62,502 nucleotides of DNA from Planctomycetia bacterium (GCA_016200145.1 JACQFH010000138.1:1-62502); one strand, 5' to 3'. Positions 10,296 to 62,117 are shown, numbered from the stretch's first letter. Numbers and translations are program-made. The notes: generated from the letters alone by a model not told the origin.

Positions 10296-11579
10296 ATGAT
10301 GAATGAACAGTTGTCGCAAATGAGGCATCCGCGGCGAAAGTTTTTGCGGGCGGCGGGGGTCGCGGTGGCGCTGCCGCTGCTGGATTCCCTGTTGCCGCGA
10401 GTGCGCGCCGGTGAGAAAACGGTCACGCCGCGACGGATGGTCTGTATCTGTGCCCCACTGGGTTTCTACCCGGGGAATTTCATTCCCAGCCAGCCGGGCA
10501 AGAGCTACGAGTTGACCCCGCACCTGGAAGTACTGAAAGACTTCCGCGACGATTTCACAGTCATCTCGGGGCTGGCGGGAATCAGCGGCGGCCACCAGGC
10601 GATCGCCGGCTTCTTGACCGGCGTGCCGGGAGCAGGCCAGCCCGGCATCCGCAACGCGATCTCGGTCGATCAATTCGCGGCCGAGCACATCGGCGCCGAG
10701 ACGCGCTTCCGCAGCCTGGCCCTCACGGGGGAAGGGCTCGGGCTGTCGTTCACCCGGACCGGCGCGCGCGTGCCGGCGTACAACTCGCCGTCGCAGTTGT
10801 TCGCCGAAATGTTTCTCGAGGGAAAGGATAACGAAGTCGAGGCCCAGTTGTTCCACCTCAAAGAAGGCCGCAGCATCCTCGATGGAGTCCGCGGCCAGGC
10901 CCAGTCGTTCCGGTCCAGCCTCGGTGCAGACGATCGCGACAGGCTCGACGAATACCTCACCAGCGTCCGCGAGCTGGAGGAGCGCCTGGTCATCGACGAG
11001 AAATGGTGCCGAACGCCCAAGCCGAAAGTGAATGTCGAGCCCCCCAGGGACATTTCTAACCGGAACGACCTGATCGGCCGAACCCGGCTGCTGTTCGAAC
11101 TGGCGCACCTGGCGGTACAAACCGATTCCACCCGCCTGATCACGATCATGCTGGCCGGGTCGACGAGCGCTCCTCCGATTCCGGGCGTGACCCAGGGGCA
11201 TCACGACCTGTCACATCACGGCAAGGATCCAGGTAAGCTCGCCCAGCTTAACCTCATCGAAATCGAATGCATGAAGGTCTTGCGCGAGCTTGTCTCGAGG
11301 CTGAAGCAGTCGCAGGAAGGGGGCGAAGCCCTGCTCGACCGGACGATGGTCTACCTGAGCAGCAACCTGGGAGACGCCAGCAGCCACTCCACCAGGAACC
11401 TCCCTGTCTTCGTCGCCGGGGGCGGCTTCCAGCACGGCCGGCACCTGGCCTTCGATCCACAGAGCCCGCCGCCGTTGTGCAATCTTTACGTGAGCATGCT
11501 CCAGCGCCTGGGGATCGAGGTCGACAAGTTCAGCACCGGCACCGGCACGCTCACCGGCCTGGAGTTCAAGCGGAGCTGA
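10296..11579 (+). CDS. Tat-exported DUF1552 protein
   Basis: This 427-residue protein begins with a twin-arginine signal (RRKFLRAAG at residues 13-21, then a hydrophobic stretch ending near ARAGE). The rest matches DUF1552, a planctomycete/verrucomicrobial family distantly related to the alkaline-phosphatase-like DUF1501 proteins. These usually sit beside DUF1592 cytochrome-like genes, as here. Tat export suggests folding, and perhaps cofactor binding, before secretion. The start ATGATG at 10296 has GCGAGGGACG upstream; the longer frame crosses a 29-bp repeat. Its biochemical role is not established. Confidence 0.9.
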   Translation: MMNEQLSQMRHPRRKFLRAAGVAVALPLLDSLLPRVRAGEKTVTPRRMVCICAPLGFYPGNFIPSQPGKSYELTPHLEVLKDFRDDFTVISGLAGISGGHQAIAGFLTGVPGAGQPGIRNAISVDQFAAEHIGAETRFRSLALTGEGLGLSFTRTGARVPAYNSPSQLFAEMFLEGKDNEVEAQLFHLKEGRSILDGVRGQAQSFRSSLGADDRDRLDEYLTSVRELEERLVIDEKWCRTPKPKVNVEPPRDISNRNDLIGRTRLLFELAHLAVQTDSTRLITIMLAGSTSAPPIPGVTQGHHDLSHHGKDPGKLAQLNLIEIECMKVLRELVSRLKQSQEGGEALLDRTMVYLSSNLGDASSHSTRNLPVFVAGGGFQHGRHLAFDPQSPPPLCNLYVSMLQRLGIEVDKFSTGTGTLTGLEFKRS

Positions 11580-14700: not shown

Positions 14701-14915
14701 ATGATCGGCAGTGTCGCATCGGACATTTTCCGCAGGTGGTGTTGCAATTCGTAGGCCGCCAACTGAGCCGATCCTGTCGGCTTTGCGCCCAGCAAGATCG
14801 TCGCGCGCGGCTGACCGTCCTCGGTCAATATCAGGGGGGCTGCCGCATCGGCAGTTGATAACGAACCGACAACGCTTGCCGACCAGATGAGAGGGAACAG
14901 GATCAGCCGCTTCAT
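11721..14915 (-). CDS. exported DUF4838 protein with CBM9-like domain
   Basis: This 1064-residue protein starts with a signal peptide (MKRLILFPLIWSASVVGSLSTADA). The N-terminal part (about residues 30-180, with ILLGAKPTGSAQLAAYELQ) resembles the alpha-glucuronidase N-terminal-like fold that precedes DUF4838. DUF4838 then covers about 190-560, with a Cys-containing stretch NTNMCGCASC. Residues about 640-830 resemble carbohydrate-binding family 9-type domains of secreted sugar-active proteins (FKLAHDDQNLYLYARC, DSLEIFLDPAG). A C-terminal beta-rich domain follows. It is likely a periplasmic or surface glycan-degrading or glycan-binding enzyme; substrate unknown. It diverges from the long DUF1592 gene across a 230-bp gap with no obvious promoter. 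Confidence 0.85.
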   Translation of the reverse strand: MKRLILFPLIWSASVVGSLSTADAAAPLILTEDGQPRATILLGAKPTGSAQLAAYELQHHLRKMSDATLPIIREPKSVQGPVIYVGDSLGARGLGYRAETFAEQEYVVKTTENSLLLLGFDRQEFGDVRYDDYSSVYAAASGPIGTCYAVHAFLEQTLGVRWYYPNEEIGVVIPTSATIVAKDLDIRRRPDAPIRSIYPLFCNSEHLYFSDWDQPQKFQSSWIDARTSLLYWIRNRAWGSTPHNANHSFHGYDEAFGQVHPEWFSTKSWDKMKDLLSARPGAYQTDIQPCLTAPGLLEEVVKTARDYFDGKPPAHPRLHAAATGNSFPVMLNDNTNMCGCASCTAQYRSDLGPDGSASHYAWSFVNRVAKEVGRTHPQAIISNCAYFNYTAPPKGLIFEPNVAVTFCKFYTGYADRNVQEQDYQRIAVYVHENKARSFTTWEYLLKPPITEGAFPCLVPHLHAEDVKRLSEIGGFRGGINQYLYLTAFHGDQPSGMAWASPVLDFMNVYWRLKLYDNFQLDIDQALDEYYATFFGPGAAAMKAFYSALEHRWMSLGGASDARASWGKLGTPEFLQEVAGFIRTARQTTEEGSQYRKRVELADAGIMQYLLTARSQYERSAASEFAPIGTAAVASVKIPASADGWANDATWTEALPNEIERMILNEPVSQRTIFKLAHDDQNLYLYARCLESQVQRMKAVTRDNDIGGFSDDSLEIFLDPAGRGESYYQLCINSLGAVYDALENPNAIGATATVTWNSGIKVRTAVGKDFWELRAALPFTNLTRKAPAAGSTWRFNLCRNRFAGGEAQPYSAWSPTLGGFRKPERFGVVTFNTPADRGRTLWNCDFSSTAFAAKASNPLIGWDGWYENTAYANRGWDKSWSVVERDGNRLAVCDINLTNPSTIVPMHAVRALRGVVSVEVDYRRLTTENQPTLLVTDANGKQLAYMYAWSAKSDLVAIEQAGRGQRQNFSGQDHGLRQLTAPGQWFGLRLVINTSEKLVTGYVRSGRGEWVRLNEKPLPYYDPEADGSQLFVGFGTYKLHDGARENNVLEMDNVRVVQMSHETGP

Positions 14916-15145
14916 GGGTCACTTCAGAATGCAATCTCGTGGTTCGCGGCGGAAGACACCGAATCGCGGGCTAACGGCCACCGGCTTTATCAGGGGAACC
15001 CGATCGCAGGGCTGATCTGACAGGCCTGTTTCTGACCGGGTGGTCGCCGACGTAAAAGGCCAATGATACGATACACAAAGCTGCGAATCAGCAGATGTCG
15101 TAAACGATCTTCCAGGTGCCGCGGGAGTTTTCATTGAAATTCACC

Positions 15146-18100
15146 ATGAGAACCAGATCTCGACGAATGTCGCTCGCAGTCATTGCGATCGGGACGATGT
15201 TGCTGACGCGGCCCGCGGTCGCCGCGGACGAGGCGGAATTGAACGCGCTCGAGAAGAGCTATGTGTCCGTGATTCGGCCGCTTGTCATCAAGTATTGCCA
15301 GGAATGCCACTCGGAGAAGCAGGCCGAGGCGGACATCGATCTGGTGTCGATCACGACTCTCGGCGATGTTCGCAAGCATCCGCAAACGTGGATCAAAGTC
15401 CGGGAAATGCTGGAGAGTGGGCAGATGCCCCCGGAAGAGGCGAAACGGCCCAGCGATTCTGAACGGACGCAGTTAATCAAGTGGGTGCGGGGCTACCTGA
15501 CGGTCGAAGCACGGGCGCAGGCCGGTGATCCAGGGCGCGTCGTCCTGCGTCGACTCAACAATGCCGAATACACTTACACCGTCCGCGAACTGACGCGGGT
15601 TGGCTCGCTCGAGCCGGCCCGTGAATTTCCGATGGACGGAGCGGCCGGAGAAGGGTTCACGAACGCCGGCAACGCGCTGGTGATGTCGCCGGCCCTGATC
15701 ACGAAATATCTGGATGCGGCCAAGGACATCTCCAGTCACCTCGTGTTCCTTCCGGACGGCTTTCGTTTCTCCCCCTACACGACTCGCCGCGACTGGACCG
15801 ACGAAACGCTCACGCAGATCCGCGACTTCTACCGCGAGTTCACCGATCAGTCCGGCGGAACGCAGGTCAACCTGCAAGGCATCGTCTCCGAAACGAACAC
15901 CGGCGGACGGTTGCCTCTCGAAAAATATCTCGCCGCGACGGTTGTCGAACGGGAACGGTTGACGAGCGGCAGCACAACCATCGCCAACGTCGCCCGGGAA
16001 CGCGGGCTGAATGCCAGGTATCTGGAGATCTTGTGGCGAAGCCTGAATGGATCTGAACCGTCGCTCGTCCTGGACGGCGTTCGCGCCCGTTGGCGCACGG
16101 CGAAACCGGATAACGTCGCCGCGCTCGTGACCCACATTGCCTCGTGGCAGAACGATTTGTGGAAGTTTTCGACAGTGGGGCACATCGGCAAGGTCGGCGG
16201 TCCAAAGGGATGGATGGAACCGGTCAGTCCGATCACTGCCCGCCAGGAGGTGCGTTTCAAGATCCCGACGTCACCCGACGCCGAAGAAGTCACCCTGGCG
16301 CTGGTCGCTACCGACGCCGGGGACGGCAATGATCACGACTTCGTGATCTGGGAAAAACCACGCCTGGTGGCGCCCGGCCGACCGGATTTGCTGCTGCGAG
16401 ATGTTCGGGACGTCACCCGCGAACTGACCGCGCGCCGCGGGCGGATTTTCGCCCGCACAGCGGCTTATCTGAATGCGGCCGACGAAGCCGCATCAGCCCA
16501 GGGGACGGCTGATATCCCTGCGCTTGCCAGAAAGCACGAGGTCGATGCCGACGTCTTGCGGGCCTGGCTCGACTATCTCGGCATCGGCGGTGGCGGTCCG
16601 ACCAGGATCGAAGGGCACTTCACGACCAAGATCGGAAAGACGGGGGGCTACGACTTCATCAATGGCTGGGGGACCGATGCAACTCCCTGGCTGATTGCGA
16701 ATTCGTCCGATCGGCATGTCCGGGTCCCCGCTAACATGAAGCCGCACGGCGTCGCCGTGCATCCGTCTCCGACACTGCGGGCCGCAGTCGGCTGGCGCAG
16801 CCCGGTTGCCGCGACAATGCGTGTCGAAGCCAGAGTGACCCATGCGCACCCCGAGTGCGGCAATGGTGTCACCTGGTCGCTGGAATTGCGGCGCGGCGCA
16901 ATCCGCCAGCGGTTGGCCACCGGCACGGCCCAGGGGAATAAGGAAGTCAAGGCGCCCCCCGTCGAAAACCTGTCGATCCAGGCCGGCGATATTGTCTCGC
17001 TCCTCATTGGTCAGAAAGATGGCAATCACGCCTGTGACTCGACCGCGATCGACCTCAAGCTCACCGACACCCGGGAGAACGGTCGAACGTGGAATCTGGC
17101 CGACGACGTGTCGGGCGACGTGCAGGCGGGAAATCCGCATGCCGACCGGTTCGGCACCGCCGACGTCTGGCATTTCTACACGGAGCCCGACAAAGGAGGC
17201 GGCACTTTTGCGCCGGTCATTCCGGCGGGTTCGCTGCTGACGAAATGGCAAGCGGCCAAAGGCGCCGATCGGCAAAAAATCGCCAACGACGTGCAGACGA
17301 TGTTGACCGCGGCCCCGCCCGCTCCCAAAGAGAGTCCGGACGCGGCGCTCTACCGGCAACTCGCGTCGTTCGGCGGTCCGCTCTTGAGTGCCATTCCCAG
17401 TCGCCGCGAGAGCGGCCAGTCCGACTCCCCACCGGCAACGGAAACAAGGGGAACCGACTTCGGCCCCGACCCCCTCCTGTTCGGCAAACATTCCGATGGC
17501 CACCCGATCGACCCGGCCAGCCTGTGTGTCCGCGCACCGGCAGTGATCGAAATGCGCCTGCCTGCCGACTGGGTGGCGGGAAGTGAATTCGTCGCCACCG
17601 GGTATCTTGATCCTCAAGCCGGCGCTGAAGGGAGCGTGCAGCTCCAGGTCCTGCCGCACAAGCCTTCTGCCGAATCGGGGCTTGTTCTCAGCGGCACAAA
17701 AGTGACCGTCGCCAACGGACAGTGGACGGCCGACAATCGCCGCATTTCCTTCGGCACACCGATCCTCGTGGCAGAGAACAGCGCAGCACGCAAACGCATC
17801 GAAGCGGCATTCACCGAATTCCGCAATATTTTTCCCGCGGCCCTGTGCTACACCAAGATCGTCCCGATCGACGAAGTCGTGACGCTCACGCTGTACTATC
17901 GCGAAGCTCACCATCTCAGCCGCCTGATGCTCGACGATGCACAACGGGCCCGGCTGGACCGGTTGTGGGAAGAATTACGCTACATCAGCCAGGACTCGCT
18001 GACCCTCGTCGATGCGCTGGCCCAGTTGATCGAATACGCGACGCAGGATGCCGATCCGAAAGTCTTCGAGCCGTTGCGTAAGCCTTATGCCGACCGGGCT

Positions 18101-53459: not shown

Positions 53460-54088
53460 TGCAATCCATCGCTTTCCGGCACGTCCTGTGCCCATAAGGA
53501 AGAGAAGAAACCGGCACATCCGTCGGGAGAGGGGCGCTGGGCGCCGTGAGGATGCGGAATCGGACCGCGTGGGTCGACCGGGAGTGCACGACCAGAGTGG
53601 CCGGGCGGGAAGCGTGGCGAATTCGCCGATGCGGAAGAGCGGGGCTCTGGGCAGCGAACGTCTGGCCCTGGGGCCGATCGGCTGGCGGCTGGAGCATTGG
53701 TTACCGTTCCTCCATGAACGACACGAACGCCGGGCGTTCCACACCGGGGCACAGCCATGTCACGCCCCCGGAACGCCGCACACTTCGTCCTCTTCGGGCC
53801 GATCCGTCGGTCCGCTCCGCAGTGCAGGAATCCAGCCCCGCACCAGACGGAAACTGCCTCGAACAACCTGACGGATTCGCGACAAACTTTCGAAACCGTC
53901 AGCGAACGGGCGGGATCATACGCACCGCGCGCCGCGCTTGTCAAACAAAAACACGATTTTGTGGGAAATCAGCAGTGTTGGGAATGCGAGCCACAGGATG
54001 TTGTGGTTAGACGTCCGTATTCTGGTGATGCTCTACGATTCGGGGTAGGATTTCCGAAGAGAATTGTCCGGACTCCGTAAGAGGGTTA
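53460..54088. other. 629-bp stretch without a supported gene
   Basis: Frames here lack family similarity and ribosome-binding sites. No repeat shared with the rest of the window was noticed. An RNA gene cannot be excluded by eye. The downstream part (about 53990-54085) presumably carries the promoter for the membrane/lipoprotein cluster. Confidence 0.45.
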
Positions 54089-54733
54089 ATGCCGATGAGT
54101 CAGTTTCAGACAACCTGGATTGTGTCGCTCGTTGCACTGCTCATTGCGTTCATGCTCGTCGGTACGTGGATCAAGAAGCAACCGCTTGGAATCCTGATCG
54201 ACGCGCAGTGTCGGATGAGCTTGTCGAGACTGCAGGTCGTCCTCTGGACCTGGCTGCTGATTTCCGCTTTTTTCGCGATCGCATTCACCTTCAAGTCGAT
54301 GGAAATCCAGATCGCTACTGAGATCTGGGCGCTGATGGGGATCAGCGTAGGTTCCGCGGCCGGCAGCGTCATCGTCAAGGGGACCAAAGCGGGTCAGCAA
54401 CCGTCCGACGCCGTGCCGCAGAATTTGCGGAATCTGGCGCGCCAGGGCGTCTTGCCGACAAAACCCGAGCCCAAGGACGCGAGTCTGTCTGATCTGTTCA
54501 CCGGAGAGGAATTGACCGATCACACATTCGTCGACATTTCCAAAGTGCAGATGTTCTTCTTCACGATCGCTGCGGTGTCGGGTTATGCCGGCGCTCTCTG
54601 GAATTGCGAACTGCCCTCGCCGGACGGCTCGCTGAAATTTCCGGCTCTATCGTCCGGTCTCGTCACGCTGCTGGGCATCAGTCACGCGGGCTATCTGACG
54701 GTCAAGGCGGCGCCGAAGACTCCGACTGCGTAA
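54089..54733 (+). CDS. three-helix membrane protein with SLSRLQ motif
   Basis: This 214-residue protein has membrane segments at about 10-28, 50-72 and 150-170, and a last hydrophobic part near 185-208. The motif MSLSRLQVVLWTWLL precedes helix 2, a similar DISKVQMFFFTIAAVSGYAG precedes the third, and LVTLLGISHAGYLTVKA closes the protein. This pattern (S-L-S-x-x-Q...WT and L-G-I-S-x-A-G-Y) recurs, from memory, in an uncharacterised bacterial membrane family. GAGGG lies 3 nt before ATG 54089; ATG 54095 is 9 nt away and equally possible. It is the first gene of a six-gene plus-strand run with lipoproteins and a protease. Confidence 0.7.
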   Translation: MPMSQFQTTWIVSLVALLIAFMLVGTWIKKQPLGILIDAQCRMSLSRLQVVLWTWLLISAFFAIAFTFKSMEIQIATEIWALMGISVGSAAGSVIVKGTKAGQQPSDAVPQNLRNLARQGVLPTKPEPKDASLSDLFTGEELTDHTFVDISKVQMFFFTIAAVSGYAGALWNCELPSPDGSLKFPALSSGLVTLLGISHAGYLTVKAAPKTPTA

Positions 54734-54975
54734 GCAAACGACTGACGCGGATTGGATCAGTCAGTTGGAGAGGCATTTCACCGAGGTATTTCACCCACCT
54801 CTGGCAATCGATGTTGCGAAGACAGGGAGTCTGGGTGAGTTGTAGCCATCCACCGCCGCCAAAATCGATGCAATCGATCGGATTGAATTATTCGCTACTA
54901 CCCAACGATTCGATGAGAAAATTGTGAGTCGGGCTACCGTCTGGCGCTGTATCGCTCATTCAAGGAGAGGCCTCG

Positions 54976-55728
54976 ATGAGACGTTACATGGCACTCACGA
55001 CGGCAGCCGTGGTCGGAACATTCATGCTTGGGTGCAATTCGATTTCCAGCACGCTCGTGAATCGCACGGACAACGACCAGTTCTTCGGCAATTCGAACGG
55101 CAAGCCTTGCAGCAAGTGTCAAACTCGACCGTTCAAGGGGGTGCCGATCACGATGCGCGTTCCCACGCATCTCGAAATCTCGGTCAAGGAGACCATCTTC
55201 CTGGAAGTGTTGACCGAAAAGAACCGAATCCAGCAGGTCTCGACGCCGCGGCGTCATCTGTTCATCGAGACGAATCTCGTGGAAACGGACAAAGTCATCA
55301 CCGTCGACCCCAAGCGGCCCGGTGGGGGAATGCTGAATTACTCCATGACTTTCGGAAAGAAAGACGTCAGGAACGACCACGCGCAGTATTTCTCCGAAAT
55401 CAAATCGTACATCGTCGACCGGACGATCCAGGACGTCAACAACTCGCTGCAAAACCTGTTTGGCCAGCAGATCACGAAACAGGACGACTTCGCCCCCCAG
55501 CAGGTCGTCAACGCACCGCCAGACCAAACGCCCCCCGCGGTGCCCCCTTCCCAGCCACAACCCGATTTACAGAACCTCATCGAGGAGCACCGCGTTGTGG
55601 CCTGGAAGCGTTTCGACATCGATGCCGCCGACTTCGAACATCAGGTCGCAGACTTCGTGAACCAGCATCTCCATTGCGATTCGCAGCCCATCGCTATCGT
55701 CCATCGTCCCACTCCATCCGTCAGATGA
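54976..55728 (+). CDS. tandem lipoprotein paralogue 1
   Basis: This 250-residue protein has a lipoprotein signal ending in FMLGC (Cys20; Asn21 follows). It contains SSTLVNRTDNDQFFGNSNG, then a CxxC (Cys45, Cys48) within GKPCSKCQTRPFKGVPIT, and beta-rich segments THLEISVKETIFLEV and VETDKVITVDPKRP. The C-terminal block is VVAWKRFDIDAADF. It shares roughly 60 percent of residues with paralogue 2. The ATG follows GGAGAGG. Envelope location is expected. No known family was recognised. Confidence 0.8.
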   Translation: MRRYMALTTAAVVGTFMLGCNSISSTLVNRTDNDQFFGNSNGKPCSKCQTRPFKGVPITMRVPTHLEISVKETIFLEVLTEKNRIQQVSTPRRHLFIETNLVETDKVITVDPKRPGGGMLNYSMTFGKKDVRNDHAQYFSEIKSYIVDRTIQDVNNSLQNLFGQQITKQDDFAPQQVVNAPPDQTPPAVPPSQPQPDLQNLIEEHRVVAWKRFDIDAADFEHQVADFVNQHLHCDSQPIAIVHRPTPSVR

Positions 55729-55781
55729 CCCGGTGCCAGACGTTGCCGGGCCCATGCAGCCGGCGTTTCGTCGCTCATTCC

Positions 55782-55787
55782 AGGAGG
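55782..55787 (+). promoter_or_regulatory. ribosome-binding site of lipoprotein 2
   Basis: AGGAGG, five bases before ATG 55793, decides this start over upstream frames. The preceding GCTCATTC is shared with the leader of lipoprotein 1, a trace of tandem gene duplication. Confidence 0.7.
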
Positions 55788-55792
55788 TCGCT

Positions 55793-56503
55793 ATGAGAAG
55801 TTCCCTGCTGCTCACGACGATCGCAGTGGCGACGGCACTCGCGCCGGGGTGCAATTCGGTTTCCAGCACTCTGGTCAACCGCACCGAAAGCGATCTCTTT
55901 TACGGCAATTCGAACGGCAAGCCCTGCCGCAAGTGCCAAACTCGCCCGTTCAAGGGGGTGCCCATCACAATCCGCGTCCCCACGCACCTCGAAATTGCCG
56001 TCAAAGAAACGCTCTTCCTGGAGCTCTCGAGCGACGAGAAACGACTGCAGCAGGTGATCACGCCGCATCCTCAATTGTTTATCGAGACGAAGCTCGTGGA
56101 AACGGACAAAGTCATCACCGTCGACCCCAAGCGGCCCGCCGCGGGGTCGCTGGATTACACGATGAACTTCGGAAAGAAGGATCCCGATCCCTCCAAGGAC
56201 AACGCCCAGTATTTCACCGACATCCGTTCCAACATCGTCGACAAGACGATCAACGACGTGAACACCGCGCTGCAAGGCATCATCCCATTGCTGCAAGCCA
56301 AGAAAACGAGCGGCAAGTTAACAAGCGGCGTCAACGTCGACAAAGATAAATTCTTCGAGGAACACCGCGTCGTCGCCTGGAAACGTTTCGACATCGACGC
56401 GGTCGACTTCGAGCAACAGGTTGCCGACTTCATCGATCAGCATCTCAATTGCAATTCGAAACCCGTCGTTCTCCCGCAGCCTGCCGGTCCGGCGGTCAAA
56501 TAG
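55793..56503 (+). CDS. tandem lipoprotein paralogue 2
   Basis: This 236-residue protein has a lipobox LAPGC (Cys20) and repeats the architecture of paralogue 1: GNSNGKPCRKCQTRPFKG with Cys45 and Cys48, ITIRVPTHLEIAVKETLF, VETDKVITVDPKRP and the C-terminal EEHRVVAWKRFDIDAVDF. The region between the core and the C-terminal block is shorter and Lys-rich. The start has an ideal AGGAGG. The adjacent paralogues probably arose by tandem duplication and may form a heteromeric envelope assembly. Confidence 0.85.
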   Translation: MRSSLLLTTIAVATALAPGCNSVSSTLVNRTESDLFYGNSNGKPCRKCQTRPFKGVPITIRVPTHLEIAVKETLFLELSSDEKRLQQVITPHPQLFIETKLVETDKVITVDPKRPAAGSLDYTMNFGKKDPDPSKDNAQYFTDIRSNIVDKTINDVNTALQGIIPLLQAKKTSGKLTSGVNVDKDKFFEEHRVVAWKRFDIDAVDFEQQVADFIDQHLNCNSKPVVLPQPAGPAVK

Positions 56504-56628
56504 GCCGGGGGGCCGATCGTTGCGGAACCAATCCGCCATCCCTGCCGGCCTGCGTGGATGCGATCGAAATTTTTTCCGTTGCCGGCCGCCCCCGGGATGA
56601 AATTCTCACCGAATTCGAGGAACTTCCG

Positions 56629-57273
56629 ATGAAACGAATCCTGGCCGCCTGTTGCGGAGCGACGCTTTTGATCTGCGGGTGTACCTCGTTCACGAGCACG
56701 GTGCTGAATCGGCTCGGCGACAATTCTTATGTTGGAAATTCGAACGGCGACCCGCACTACAACGACAGTGCGCGCCCCTACAAGGGGGTCCCCATCACAC
56801 TGCAGGTTCCCAGCCACCTGGATGTGTTCATCGACGAAACCTATTACCTGCAGAAGTCCAGTGCGACGCCAGCGGAGGATCAAAAAGATATCACCGTGCT
56901 CGAAGAAGCCGCGGTGCCGCCGCTGCGGTCCGTGCGTGCGGAAACGGTGAAGACCAAAAAGGTGTTCTTTGTGGATTTCAAACGGCCGGGTTCCGGCTCA
57001 CTGGATGTTTCCGCAACATTCAACGACGACCAGTACTTCAAGAACATCACCAGCAAGCTGGTCGACACGACGATCAAGGATACGGCCGCTCTGGCCGGCA
57101 CCATCATCAAGGGCGCCAAAGGCATCAGTACGGCGGGCACATTGACAAAAGAGATGATGAAACAGACGCGCGTCGTGGCCTATCGACGGTTCGACATCAA
57201 CGAGCCCGATTTTGACATGCAGGTCGATGAGTTTGTCCGCGTGCATTTGGCAGATTGCTGTCCGTCGCATTAA
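56629..57273 (+). CDS. tandem lipoprotein paralogue 3 (diverged)
   Basis: This 214-residue protein has a lipobox LICGC (Cys18). It keeps the core NSNGDPHYNDSARPYKGVPIT but the CxxC pair is replaced by His/Tyr/Ala. VFFVDFKRPGSGSLDVSATF aligns with VDPKRP...LDYTMNF of paralogue 2, and VVAYRRFDINEPDFDMQVDEF with its C-terminal block. It is clearly homologous but not a recent copy. ATG 56629 has GAGGAAC upstream. Whether it binds the same partner is unknown; loss of the cysteines suggests a changed function. Confidence 0.8.
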   Translation: MKRILAACCGATLLICGCTSFTSTVLNRLGDNSYVGNSNGDPHYNDSARPYKGVPITLQVPSHLDVFIDETYYLQKSSATPAEDQKDITVLEEAAVPPLRSVRAETVKTKKVFFVDFKRPGSGSLDVSATFNDDQYFKNITSKLVDTTIKDTAALAGTIIKGAKGISTAGTLTKEMMKQTRVVAYRRFDINEPDFDMQVDEFVRVHLADCCPSH

Positions 57274-57318
57274 TTGTTCTGATGAACTGCATCACACCGT
57301 TTGTTTGAGGGCACACCG

Positions 57319-58650
57319 ATGACTGCCAACAAAGCTGCTCCCCCGGCGGACGACGATGACAAGCTCTCGAAGGGTCGTGGCAAAAAATCATCCGCGAAGC
57401 GCCCGAAGCCTGCAGTCAGCAGGAAATCGACCAGGAAGGCCGTTGCGAAGAGCCGGAAAGAAACCGGCCAGAGGAGAGCCGGTAAGAAGACAAGCCGGAA
57501 GTCCACGCGAAAAAAGTCGTCGAGCGGCGCGCCGGCGAAAAGTAGGAGCAAGCGTTCATCGTCTGTCGGAACTGCCCAGACGCCGCCGCAGCGTCTCCAG
57601 CCTGTCGCAACCGCCGCGGCGGCCGCCGCCTTCTATGACGAGCTCAGCCAGGTCAATGAAGAACTCAGAACTCGCTGGGCGGAACTGTCGCAACAGCGGA
57701 CCCATGCCGAGGAGGTTTTATCCCGATTCGTCGACTTGCTGAAATCGCATCCGGAAGTCACGGGATTTCACGTGGGGTTGTGGCGGAAGGATAACAAGAT
57801 CGTCCGGCCTTTAGAGTACTGCATCCAGGTGCACGTCGCTGAGAAACTCGCCAAAGGCGATCCGCGGATGATGCAGGCGCTGCCGCCGGATTTCGATGGA
57901 GTTCGGGTCGACGTGCTCGAACGCTCCTACTCGACGGCGATCGGTGTTCGTCAGGGAGTATTATTCGATCCCATTCTAGGTGGCGTCGAGATCCGCAACG
58001 AGGGTACGCCCAACCGCTTTGGGACGCTGGGGCTCTGCGTCTTCTCTGAGAGTTCGGGGCGAGCCCCCCATTACCTCACGAATGAGCATGTCGTGGGATC
58101 GGGCGGCAGAGTCTTGCAGCCTGCGTCCGGGAACGCATCCGCGGGCGCAAAAGCTGTGATTGGCAGCGTGATCGACAGCGAACGCACCGGATTTGTGGAT
58201 GCAGCGCTCATCAAACCGTCGGGAAATCGCACATTCGACGTCGGCGTCGCTGGCCCCAACGGGCAGCCCCTGGATGGAGATCTGGTTCCCGGGACACTCA
58301 CTAAGGCGGACGAACACGTTACTCGCTGTTTCAAAATCGGCGCCATGACGGGAACCGGTCAGGAAGTCGGCATCGTCGAAAACATCAATGAGCACATCAA
58401 CATCAAGAACTTCGGCTGGATGGACAATCAGATCATCGTCAACCCGATTCCCGGATCATCCGCGCCGCTGATTCAGGAAGGCGACAGCGGATCGGTCTTG
58501 ATCGCGCGAGTCACTCATCAAAATCGCGAATCGCTGATCGTGGTGGGGCTCGTCCACGCGATGACCGATGACGGCGGAATCGTGGCCTGCCACTTCAGTC
58601 GAGTTCAAGAACGGTTTCGAATCAGCTTGTTTGACATTAATCCCGTTTGA
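57319..58650 (+). CDS. trypsin-like serine peptidase domain with histone-like basic tail
   Basis: This 443-residue protein has no signal peptide. Residues 15-85 are exceptionally rich in Lys, Arg and Ser (for example STRKAVAKSRKETG), like an H1-type histone tail, and a short helical region follows. The C-terminal half has the chymotrypsin-fold triad: His257 in LTNEHVVGSG, Asp294 in VDAALI and Ser390 in EGDSGS. A contact with DNA, RNA or an acidic protein through the tail is inferred. ATG 57319 begins the basic tail. It is encoded 45 bp after lipoprotein 3 in the same direction. Confidence 0.8.
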   Translation: MTANKAAPPADDDDKLSKGRGKKSSAKRPKPAVSRKSTRKAVAKSRKETGQRRAGKKTSRKSTRKKSSSGAPAKSRSKRSSSVGTAQTPPQRLQPVATAAAAAAFYDELSQVNEELRTRWAELSQQRTHAEEVLSRFVDLLKSHPEVTGFHVGLWRKDNKIVRPLEYCIQVHVAEKLAKGDPRMMQALPPDFDGVRVDVLERSYSTAIGVRQGVLFDPILGGVEIRNEGTPNRFGTLGLCVFSESSGRAPHYLTNEHVVGSGGRVLQPASGNASAGAKAVIGSVIDSERTGFVDAALIKPSGNRTFDVGVAGPNGQPLDGDLVPGTLTKADEHVTRCFKIGAMTGTGQEVGIVENINEHINIKNFGWMDNQIIVNPIPGSSAPLIQEGDSGSVLIARVTHQNRESLIVVGLVHAMTDDGGIVACHFSRVQERFRISLFDINPV

Positions 58651-58722
58651 TCAGTGAGACGAGCGATTGGCGCGGCTGTGGGAGTCGACCGGATGAGATG
58701 GATCCAATTGAAAGACCCAGAC

Positions 58723-60249
58723 ATGTCCCCCAGGTCTGCAGTTCAAAGCACCCTTTGTCTGGCTGCGCTTGGGCTCCTGATGTCCGGTTGCATGCTTCCC
58801 GGAGCGGACAAATGCTGCTGCCGCTGTCCGCCGGATGTCGCGGGAACTGTCGAGACCGGTGGGCCGTTCGCCGTCGCCCGAACGCTTCGGATTCCCGAAT
58901 CGGGCCTCACGCTGAGCGACGCCGTCGAACGTTCTCTGCGCCCGGGGATCGTCAGCCAGGCGGCGCCGATTTCCGGCAACGGAATCGCCGCCACCACGTT
59001 GCCGGTGGGGGCCAGGGACAACGTTCAGGATGATGTGCGGGCGATTCTCGCTCGCAACATCGGCCCGGCTGAGGGTGTCGAGATCACGCCCGAGATCAAG
59101 GCGGCGACGACAACCGAGATCGGGAAACGAACGGACAAAATCGTGGAAAAGCTGTTCGGCGACGATCAATCGGAGGAGAGAAACAGCTTCGCCACGAAAC
59201 TGCAGCTGGCATTGAAGAAGGCAGTTGACGACGGGACGTTCAGGCCTCGAATGGCGTCGGATACTTCGCACATTGCCGAGGTGAATCGCCAGAAGGACCA
59301 ACTCTACCAGGAGATCCTGTTGACCTTCGTGTTTTCCGACACGCTCGCCTCCGGCGTGCCGGGGGACGACCAGCTCAAACGGAGTCGCGATCGAAGTGCC
59401 CGCATTTTTGGGATTTCGGCCAACGACTCGCGCTACGACGGCGTTCTGAGAAACTTGTCGGACGCACGCGATCGAGGCGGCAAATTCGCTCTGGCGGGAG
59501 ACGCACGCCGCGAAGCGCTGGTCGGCCTTCTGACGCCGCCGAACGGCGAATCGTTGGCGCCTCCTCCTCCCGCCGAGATGATCATTCCTGGTTCGGCACG
59601 ATCGATCGCTGATGAACTGGCCGTGGTCTTGACGCGTCGAAGCGGGCGACGGCTGATCATCCCGCTGCAGTTCGTCCGTACGTTTCGTCCGGGCGATATC
59701 CGCCTCCAGCACGGCGATCAAATTCAGATTGTGCCATTTCCGCAACCGGCAACGGGCAGCGCGTCGGCAGACCAGGCGTCCGGCCTGGTCGGCATCACAA
59801 GCTGGTTTTCCAAAGAGGCAGTCGCCTATTCCCTGCCAGACGGCGCAACAACCAGTCTGTGGGATCTTCTCAACGAACTTGAGAATCGCGCGGCGGACGC
59901 CGTGATTTTGCGGCGTTACTCGGGCCCGATCGGACCAGACGAATACATCCTGCCGCCTGACGATGCGATGCGACTTTCCAGCATTCCTGTTCGCGACCTT
60001 GACTTGGTTCACTTGGACGCGTTTGGTTTGAATTCCCTGACTCAGGCCGGTTCGGCACCATCTGGTGAGAAGTGTTGTGCGATGTGCGGCAAGCCCAAAA
60101 ACGGCAAAGGACGCAAGTGCTGCAACCCATTTGCCGGCGCCGACCAGCAACTGAAGACTTTGACAGGAGCGAGTGTCGGCGATACCGTTCAGCAGGCAGG
60201 GCGTGGCTTCCAGGATGCGGCCGCCGGGTTTTCGAGTCAGATTCGATAA
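58723..60249 (+). CDS. cysteine-rich lipoprotein of unknown function
   Basis: This protein of about 508 residues has a lipobox LMSGC (Cys23), then clustered cysteines (CCCRCPP at 31-37). The middle part contains helical segments and IRLQHGDQIQIVPFP, which faintly recalls SLBB-type export proteins, but no domain is assigned. A second cysteine cluster (CCAMCGKPKNGKGRKCC) lies near 470-485. Metal binding is plausible. ATG 58723 gives the shortest complete signal; ATG 58693 and 58654 are alternatives. It is the last gene of the cluster, 72 bp after the protease gene. Confidence 0.7.
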   Translation: MSPRSAVQSTLCLAALGLLMSGCMLPGADKCCCRCPPDVAGTVETGGPFAVARTLRIPESGLTLSDAVERSLRPGIVSQAAPISGNGIAATTLPVGARDNVQDDVRAILARNIGPAEGVEITPEIKAATTTEIGKRTDKIVEKLFGDDQSEERNSFATKLQLALKKAVDDGTFRPRMASDTSHIAEVNRQKDQLYQEILLTFVFSDTLASGVPGDDQLKRSRDRSARIFGISANDSRYDGVLRNLSDARDRGGKFALAGDARREALVGLLTPPNGESLAPPPPAEMIIPGSARSIADELAVVLTRRSGRRLIIPLQFVRTFRPGDIRLQHGDQIQIVPFPQPATGSASADQASGLVGITSWFSKEAVAYSLPDGATTSLWDLLNELENRAADAVILRRYSGPIGPDEYILPPDDAMRLSSIPVRDLDLVHLDAFGLNSLTQAGSAPSGEKCCAMCGKPKNGKGRKCCNPFAGADQQLKTLTGASVGDTVQQAGRGFQDAAAGFSSQIR

Positions 60250-60547: not shown

Positions 60548-61336
60548 ATGCCCATTTCCTGCGAATGTCCTGAATGCGGCAAACGGCTCAAGGCCGCGGA
60601 TTCGGCGGCCGGGAAAAAGGCAAAGTGCCCGGACTGCGGCGCCGCCGTGCCGATTCCCGTAAAAAAGAAGCCAAAGCCCAAGTCCGCTGAAGAGAGCGAA
60701 TTCGATCTTCAGAGTCTTGACATCGACGCCGGAATGGCCGGGCCGGTCGAAGAGGAACAGATCGCCTGTCCGGCGTGCAGCGAGATGATCAATGCAACAG
60801 CCGGCAAGTGCCGGTACTGCGGAGAGAATCTGTCGGCACCGCGAAAAAAGAAGAAGGGAAAACGCAGCCGTTCCGGTCCGGGAATACCGGTTTCGATCAT
60901 TGTCGCCGTCGCGGTCGAGTGCCTCTTTATCTGCTTCAACCTGTTTGCCATCGTCAGAGTGCTGACAATGCCGACTCCCGCGCTGCCGGCGAATCTTCCG
61001 CCCGAGCGGGCACAAATTGTGAAGATGGGCAACACGGCGGGTGTGGTCCTCCAGGGAGTTCTGGTGCTCATCGAAGTGGCGATCGCCGTGGGTCTCCTGC
61101 AGGGCAAGAACGCGGTCCGCATTCTGGCCCTGATTCTGGACGGCATCGGGGCCGCCTTCTTCGTGATCTGCGGCGGCGTGGGACTGTTCATCGGCATGCA
61201 GGCGATGGCTCAAATGCCCCAAGGCCAGGAGGGCATCGGCCTGGCCTTTGCCCTGCTGCTGGGACGGGGGGCGCTCTACCTCATTCAATTTGGCGCACTG
61301 CAAACTGCCACGGCACGGGACTTCCTCAGTTCGTGA
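60548..61336 (+). CDS. zinc-ribbon membrane protein, tandem copy 1
   Basis: This 262-residue protein has two zinc ribbons: Cys7/Cys10 with Cys27/Cys30, and Cys74/Cys77 with Cys88/Cys91. A basic linker follows (about 98-112), then four hydrophobic helices (about 113-137, 155-180, 184-205, 222-245). The ribbons should be cytosolic. Function unknown; many planctomycete membrane proteins carry such ribbons. It is a tandem duplicate of 61386-62117. Confidence 0.8.
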   Translation: MPISCECPECGKRLKAADSAAGKKAKCPDCGAAVPIPVKKKPKPKSAEESEFDLQSLDIDAGMAGPVEEEQIACPACSEMINATAGKCRYCGENLSAPRKKKKGKRSRSGPGIPVSIIVAVAVECLFICFNLFAIVRVLTMPTPALPANLPPERAQIVKMGNTAGVVLQGVLVLIEVAIAVGLLQGKNAVRILALILDGIGAAFFVICGGVGLFIGMQAMAQMPQGQEGIGLAFALLLGRGALYLIQFGALQTATARDFLSS

Positions 61337-61385: not shown

Positions 61386-62117
61386 ATGTCCATTTCCTGC
61401 GAATGTCCTGAATGCGGTAAACGGCTCAAGGCCGCGGATTCGGCGGCCGGGAAGAAGGCGAAGTGCCCGGATTGCGGCGGCGCCGTGCCGATTCCCGTGA
61501 GGAAGAAGCCGAAGCCCGAGTCTGCGGATGGTGGCGACTTCGATCTCCAGAACCTCGACATCGACGCCGGAATGGCCGGGCCGGTCGAAGAGGAACAGGT
61601 CGCCTGTGCCATGTGCGGCGAGATGGTCAAAGCGACGGCCAGCCGATGCCGGTATTGCGGCGAAAATCTGGAGGCGCCGCGCAGGAAAACGGGGAAGCGG
61701 TCGAGTTCTTCCGGACCGGGAATGCCGGTTCCCGTCGTGATCGCCTTCATCGTCGAATGTCTGTTCATCGGCCTGAACGGGCTGGGCATTGTCGGAAATC
61801 TGATGCAGTCTAACATCCCCGGGGCCGGCGGTTCGCTCGTTCGCATGGGGATCGAGGTTTCCATTGCCGCGGGCCTGTGGCAGAGAAAAAGCTCGGCTCG
61901 CATGTCGGCCCTTGTGCTCGACGGGATTGGGATCGTCCTCATGCTGGTGTGCGGCGGATTCCTGCTGGCCATGGGTCAGCAGCCCCAGTTCAAGGCCCAG
62001 ATTCCACAGGAGATGGGGGCGATCCTGGTCGTTATCCTGGCCGGGCAGATCGTGCTGTACATCACCGAGATTGTTGCCTTGATGACCGGTTCCGCGCAGG
62101 AGTACCTTGATCAATAA
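61386..62117 (+). CDS. zinc-ribbon membrane protein, tandem copy 2
   Basis: This 243-residue protein is very similar in residues 1-100 to copy 1: DNA identity extends from about 20 bp upstream of the ATG through the first zinc ribbon. The second ribbon (CAMC ... CRYC) is conserved. The helical part is diverged and shortened (about 112-132, 143-165, 168-190, 205-228). Concerted or recent exchange of the 5' halves is inferred. Confidence 0.8.
   Translation: MSISCECPECGKRLKAADSAAGKKAKCPDCGGAVPIPVRKKPKPESADGGDFDLQNLDIDAGMAGPVEEEQVACAMCGEMVKATASRCRYCGENLEAPRRKTGKRSSSSGPGMPVPVVIAFIVECLFIGLNGLGIVGNLMQSNIPGAGGSLVRMGIEVSIAAGLWQRKSSARMSALVLDGIGIVLMLVCGGFLLAMGQQPQFKAQIPQEMGAILVVILAGQIVLYITEIVALMTGSAQEYLDQ

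Follow-up and report, generated by a model that had tools for sequence, protein, structure and literature searches.

Five co-directional genes at positions 54976-60249 of the window (the whole 62,502-nucleotide stretch of DNA that was analysed) very probably form a real, previously undescribed module that travels as a unit in planctomycetes, as judged from the comparison of homologous loci. They encode three tandem lipoproteins of a family that appears to be new (hereafter LPs), a trypsin-fold serine protease of the NAL1 type, and a lipoprotein carrying two SLBB domains, and from their layout we infer that they are transcribed together as a five-gene operon. No description of this module was found in the open-access literature.

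Mechanistically, we propose that the tandem LPs, of types a and b and probably forming a heteromer, would assemble with the SLBB lipoprotein into a complex of the envelope, with the outer membrane as its probable site, and that this complex would bind a glycan or another soluble polymer. The protease would be kept in the cytoplasm, tethered to nucleic acid through its N-terminal tail, and by degrading a regulator it would allow envelope structure and gene expression to be controlled together. This coupling of an envelope lipoprotein complex to a cytoplasmic, nucleic-acid-bound regulatory protease draws on analogy, and we put it forward tentatively, as possible rather than probable. The statement as a whole, with module and mechanism taken together, falls somewhat short of even confidence.

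Gene layout and order across planctomycetes

The window is the entire contig C401 of a fragmented genome of 8.3 Mb. Six open reading frames were confirmed between positions 54089 and 60249, all on the + strand and co-directional as the original prediction had it, and since homologues of each occur elsewhere, we regard all six as real genes. In order, they encode the SLSRLQ membrane protein (54089-54733), LPa1 (54976-55728), LPa2 (55793-56503), LPb (or LP3; 56629-57273), the protease (57319-58650), and the SLBB lipoprotein (58693-60249), with intergenic gaps of 242, 64, 125, 45, and 42 bp. The predicted short spacing thus applies to the last five genes (42-125 bp) and not to the SLSRLQ gene, which its 242-bp gap sets apart from the others. 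Similarly, the cluster of six that had been proposed shrinks to a conserved module of five, as the other 25 LP loci all lack the SLSRLQ gene. A scan for promoters and terminators gave counts at chance level only. Starting 298 bp past the module, two tandem paralogues (60548-61336 and 61386-62117) encode proteins with several transmembrane segments, which open with a zinc ribbon and carry a further, double one (PF12773).

With LP used as the anchor, 26 loci were collected, all of them from Planctomycetota. Among the testable loci, i.e., those where the sequence runs on beyond the LPs, the NAL1-type protease was the next same-strand gene in 22 of 23, and the SLBB lipoprotein came next in 19 of 22, 18 of which carry all three parts. 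Each profile drew on nine loci, and the loci outside them, which provide the fair test, gave the protease in 13 of 14 cases and the SLBB lipoprotein in 10 of 12. Overall, LP, protease, and last lipoprotein occur together in the same order and on the same strand at at least 18 loci from several planctomycete families, with gaps between module genes that are mostly short or overlapping, so that these three are not homologues found singly and far apart in related genomes. Conservation of gene order in other planctomycetes therefore covers the LP-protease-SLBB series and leaves out the SLSRLQ gene, whose relatives lie in other neighbourhoods. The distance matrices of LP, protease, and SLBB lipoprotein correlated with r of 0.88, 0.89, and 0.79 (15 loci; 0 of 2000 permutations as high), as expected under joint inheritance, although part of this correlation reflects shared species history.

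The composition of the module varies within limits. From one to four LP copies are arranged in tandem, often including both types; locus L035 has LP and protease and lacks the SLBB lipoprotein, L019 keeps LP-LP-SLBB with the protease missing, and at L120 and L154 the SLBB position is taken by an exported ORF unscored by the profile. At L131 (180-5342, genome G543), the SLBB lipoprotein is followed by an additional LP, giving the order LP-protease-SLBB-LP. The module is followed at L017 (12541-14698) and L020 (11804-13988) by the same two genes, one encoding an exported protein of no assigned family and the other a proton channel subunit of the MotA/ExbB type.

Two types of an unmatched lipoprotein

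LP1, LP2, and LP3 of the window are paralogues with a lipobox Cys and, as predicted, belong to no recognised family. None of 25 LPs matched a Pfam family at E 0.01, comparisons with NCBIfam and PHROG gave sub-threshold hits only, PADLOC returned no family, and no match was obtained among PDB sequences; by these sequence searches, the LP family is new. The AlphaFold2 model of LPa2 was strand-rich, and a Foldseek search of PDB with the LP model returned nothing under E 0.001. The best structural score for this model of mean pLDDT 74 was a weak VIA Z of 2.1 (YEATS-type sandwiches).

In the tree, LP1 and LP2 (61% identity) pair as recent duplicates (support 100/98). The first LP of L012 joins them with support of 97/91, and that of Rhodopirellula solitaria (L013) with the lower support of 92/77; LP3 clusters with the second LP of both (100/99), which makes the window array a-a-b. 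Genus g55 has four LPs that alternate a-b-a-b, the odd copies forming one supported clade and the even copies another; its loci L033, L034, L121, and L122 reached this arrangement via duplication of an a-b pair, and the protease and SLBB lipoprotein follow. L120 and L130 carry one a and one b LP each, and the a/b pair is not universal, since only one LP is present at several loci. There may thus be two ancient LP types, a and b, with the split in g55 and that in the window lineage possibly separate events. Because one LP of each type is kept, and in order, the a and b LPs are suggested to be partners, likely as a heteromer.

The tree also bears on a CxxC motif (Cys45/Cys48), which is indeed retained in LP1 and LP2 and absent from LP3. 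Its supposed loss from LP3 was rejected: LP3 is instead the older second type, and with CxxC in just 3 of 25 aligned LPs, the motif appears to be a local feature and not one of the LP family.

The protease and its N-terminal tail

A profile of nine protease homologues (A5) matched the NARROW LEAF 1 (NAL1) structures 8hau/8pme with an E of about 4e-18, in an alignment that covers the N-terminal domain and the trypsin-fold domain and in which the His and Ser motifs (TNxHV and GDSGS) coincide. NAL1_N was found in the single members L018 (1e-3) and L035 (4e-3), under the curated cut-off. By profile comparison, the protease is of the NAL1 type, with a NAL1_N-like domain before the trypsin-fold domain. 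It is predicted to be catalytically competent: its triad is H257, D294, and S390, and 20 of 21 homologues retain all of His-Asp-Ser, the remaining one being a disrupted copy from a draft genome. In the flanks examined, LPs adjoin only high-scoring NAL1-like proteases. The genome of the window (G000) encodes two more, on contigs C388 (2364-2993; with a signal-peptide-like start) and C203 (1693-2370), neither of them beside LPs.

The triad and the Lys/Arg-rich N-terminal tail (57319-57573, residues 1-85; 29 Lys/Arg) bear out the trypsin/chymotrypsin-type protease with a basic tail of the original prediction. A net charge of at least +5 over the first 40 residues was found in 15 of 17 LP-linked proteases compared with 1 of 18 unlinked NAL1-like proteases (medians of +9 and +1; Mann-Whitney p 6e-5). 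The tail is missing in L013, L120, and L154 (the last mapped later than the charge comparison) and so is not strictly needed. In L013, from R. solitaria, an N-terminal helix-hairpin-helix (HhH; 10474-10700) replaces it (PF00633, E 1e-4, narrowly missing the curated cut-off), an apparent swap between nucleic-acid-binding types. By inspection, no recognisable signal peptide (Sec, Tat, or lipoprotein) was present at the N-termini of the LP-linked proteases examined, whereas several unlinked NAL1-like proteases start, by eye, with signal-peptide-like hydrophobic stretches. The protease is thus probably cytoplasmic, and the predicted single system at the membrane may hold for the lipoproteins and probably not for this component.

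Polybasic tails also bind membranes, RNA, or polyanions, and the protease could instead be exported without a classical signal, rest with its tail on an anionic polymer or membrane, and mature or shed the LPs and the SLBB lipoprotein. Its sole constant neighbours are exported lipoproteins, its tail would suit a polyanion, and polysaccharide binding has been proposed for SLBB domains (PMC1796856), but the missing export signals, set beside the signal-like N-termini of unlinked relatives, and the HhH of R. solitaria, which points to nucleic acid, make such an envelope protease rather unlikely. A cytoplasmic, nucleic-acid-bound protease is favoured because tail and HhH are both nucleic-acid-binding types.

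The last gene and polymer export

The second lipoprotein had been described as cysteine-rich, which is true of the N- and C-terminal parts of the window protein (58693-60249) and is not family-wide; what the family conserves is the SLBB domains. A lipobox is present, by motif, in the aligned members. Pfam detected SLBB domains (PF10531 or PF22461) in L017, L019, and L125, and a profile from SLBB-type homologues only matched the window gene with an E of 5e-6; by profile and fold, the window protein has two Wza-like SLBB domains. The family profile (A6) matched Wza with an E of 4e-4, and Foldseek placed Wza structures first for the window model (E 2e-4, probability 1.00), of which only the SLBB parts are relied on here. 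With one component of the NAL1 type and another Wza-like in its SLBB region, the earlier view that no component gives a known pathway was too pessimistic.

Such matches would also suit a Wza/OPX-type outer membrane polymer exporter, with the SLBB lipoprotein as the pore ring, the LPs as a lid or plug, and the protease as an accessory regulator, a reading in keeping with L019, where LP and SLBB lipoprotein stay together without the protease. However, neither the window protein (hits considered up to E 1) nor the other members scanned showed the Poly_export domain (PF02563), which is common to all OPX proteins (PMC9603273), so the SLBB lipoprotein falls outside the OPX proteins as defined in the literature. 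Nor was Wza_C found in it, and its model, of low mean pLDDT overall (56), has no continuous Wza-like stack. No polysaccharide synthesis genes were recognised in the mapped flanks, and at the mapped loci no constant glycosyltransferase, Wzx/Wzy, or Wzc neighbour was recognised. We therefore consider an exporter unlikely. Within the envelope complex that we prefer, the SLBB lipoprotein may bind glycans in a manner similar to OPX proteins (PMC1796856).

The upstream neighbour and peptidase neighbourhoods

The SLSRLQ protein (54089-54733, + strand) contains two 'SLSRxQ...LWT...GIS' units and two clear hydrophobic segments by simple hydropathy, and no family was found for it in Pfam, NCBIfam, PHROGs, or PADLOC. 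Relatives occur in 5 of 392 genomes of the phylum (that of the window, G099 with 40% identity, G299, G324, and G356) and on one plasmid, of Sinorhizobium terangae. They adjoin a NAL1 protease (L084), a caspase (L085), CHAT and ATPase genes (L067), and a set of Endonuclease_NS, lipoprotein, and trypsin genes (L087), with none of these at L086, which gives a weak hint of a leaning towards peptidase neighbourhoods, and SLSRLQ may mark a wider peptidase-linked membrane family. At L087, the relative ends in a KKTTKKKAAKKK tail resembling that of the proteases; at L084, a gene near the NAL1-type protease (14883-15839) has tandem repeats TPEEQAYYQGMADYEA and then an extended PPVPPVR repeat. For the window, the SLSRLQ gene is best treated as an accidental or very recent neighbour, probably outside the module.

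Were it included, all six genes might constitute a peptidase-based conflict system for cell suicide or against invaders. The literature has examples that contain trypsin and NucA, and the VMAP type is known from planctomycetes too (PMC7159879); at 4 of 5 other loci, the SLSRLQ relatives have NAL1, caspase, CHAT/ATPase, or Endonuclease_NS-trypsin genes as neighbours. Yet SLSRLQ is missing from every other LP locus, and no STAND, EAD, vWA/MoxR, CHAT, or nuclease gene was seen in the module; Pfam found no STAND, vWA/MoxR, EAD, NucA, or CHAT partner in the module or its immediate window neighbours, and PADLOC gave no match, which leaves this very improbable. Adjacency of unrelated genes by chance holds for the SLSRLQ gene but is already refuted for the other five by an order conserved in at least 18 loci across families, held-out genomes included, and because only 32 of 392 genomes of the phylum have a NAL1-type (NAL1-like) protease, chance linkage is negligible and this explanation extremely improbable.

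Occurrence among genomes

Among about 85,000 bacteria and archaea (one genome per species), nine LP loci were found, all in planctomycetes, a count limited by the reach of the patterns used. Whole-genome searches detected LP in 17 of 170 genomes of the window's family and in 21 of 397 genomes drawn from its class. G001, the sole other genome of the same genus searched, has no copy of the module, which is therefore accessory. As far as these searches extend, the LP family is patchy and accessory, with none seen beyond the phylum. One LP match, in G116 (E 0.0017), looks spurious, its flank containing no LP-like gene, and was set aside. Viral contigs contained neither LP nor SLSRLQ relatives. In an empty-site comparison with G001, the upstream C26 gene proved to be shared at 77-79% identity and the similarity reached window position 53964, but the remaining flank was non-syntenic, with no clean insertion border.

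Mechanism and significance

The comparison of loci establishes the composition, order, strand, and joint inheritance of the module, together with an intact triad and lipoprotein signals. In E. coli, lipoproteins without an Asp after the lipobox Cys go to the outer membrane, and the outer membrane location of the module lipoproteins is assumed from the lack of this residue. No module gene encodes a transmembrane signal transducer between envelope and cytoplasm. Plant NAL1 degrades TOPLESS-type corepressors (PMC12915138; PMC10970654), and that the bacterial enzyme would likewise degrade a regulator is by analogy only. A more specific version is a two-compartment device, in which a DNA-anchored protease, responding to the a/b LP-SLBB complex, would destroy a nucleoid-bound regulator. 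We consider this decidedly improbable; if true, bacteria would have their own version of the way plant NAL1 destroys a corepressor, one that includes a lipoprotein whose fold is unrecognised.

For the planctomycetes, with their unusual and little-understood cell envelope, the module adds a conserved gene set and an unmatched lipoprotein family. In addition, an active-looking protease of a type familiar from plant development is here part of a bacterial operon and carries an N-terminus of a nucleic-acid-binding type, and this operon offers a genetic setting for testing the ancestral role of the NAL1 protease family. Since several members come from closed genomes, presumably of cultured strains, and the isolate Rhodopirellula solitaria CA85 also carries the module, deletion experiments can be envisaged.

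Comparison with known systems

Wza and other OPX proteins share with the last protein of the module a lipoprotein signal and SLBB domains, and are its best fold match; the module protein differs from them in that neither Poly_export nor Wza_C was found in it and no constant polysaccharide gene neighbours were recognised. The DNA receptor ComEA combines SLBB and HhH, and both domain types occur within one gene set in R. solitaria. Here, however, they are on two separate proteins, HhH is confined to R. solitaria, the module SLBB domains match the Wza kind better, and no competence genes were recognised nearby. With the Trypsin/NucA and VMAP-type conflict systems, the module has trypsin-type peptidase genes in common, and SLSRLQ relatives lie in such neighbourhoods, but none of the defining partners of these systems was seen in it. 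Plant NAL1 (PF25608 NAL1_N and PF25819 Nal1_C) shares the NAL1_N-type and trypsin-fold domains with the module protease. The two are distant in sequence, the Pfam NAL1 matches of module members being under the curated cut-offs, and the bacterial enzyme is distinguished by a polybasic or HhH N-terminus and by its place in an operon with lipoproteins.
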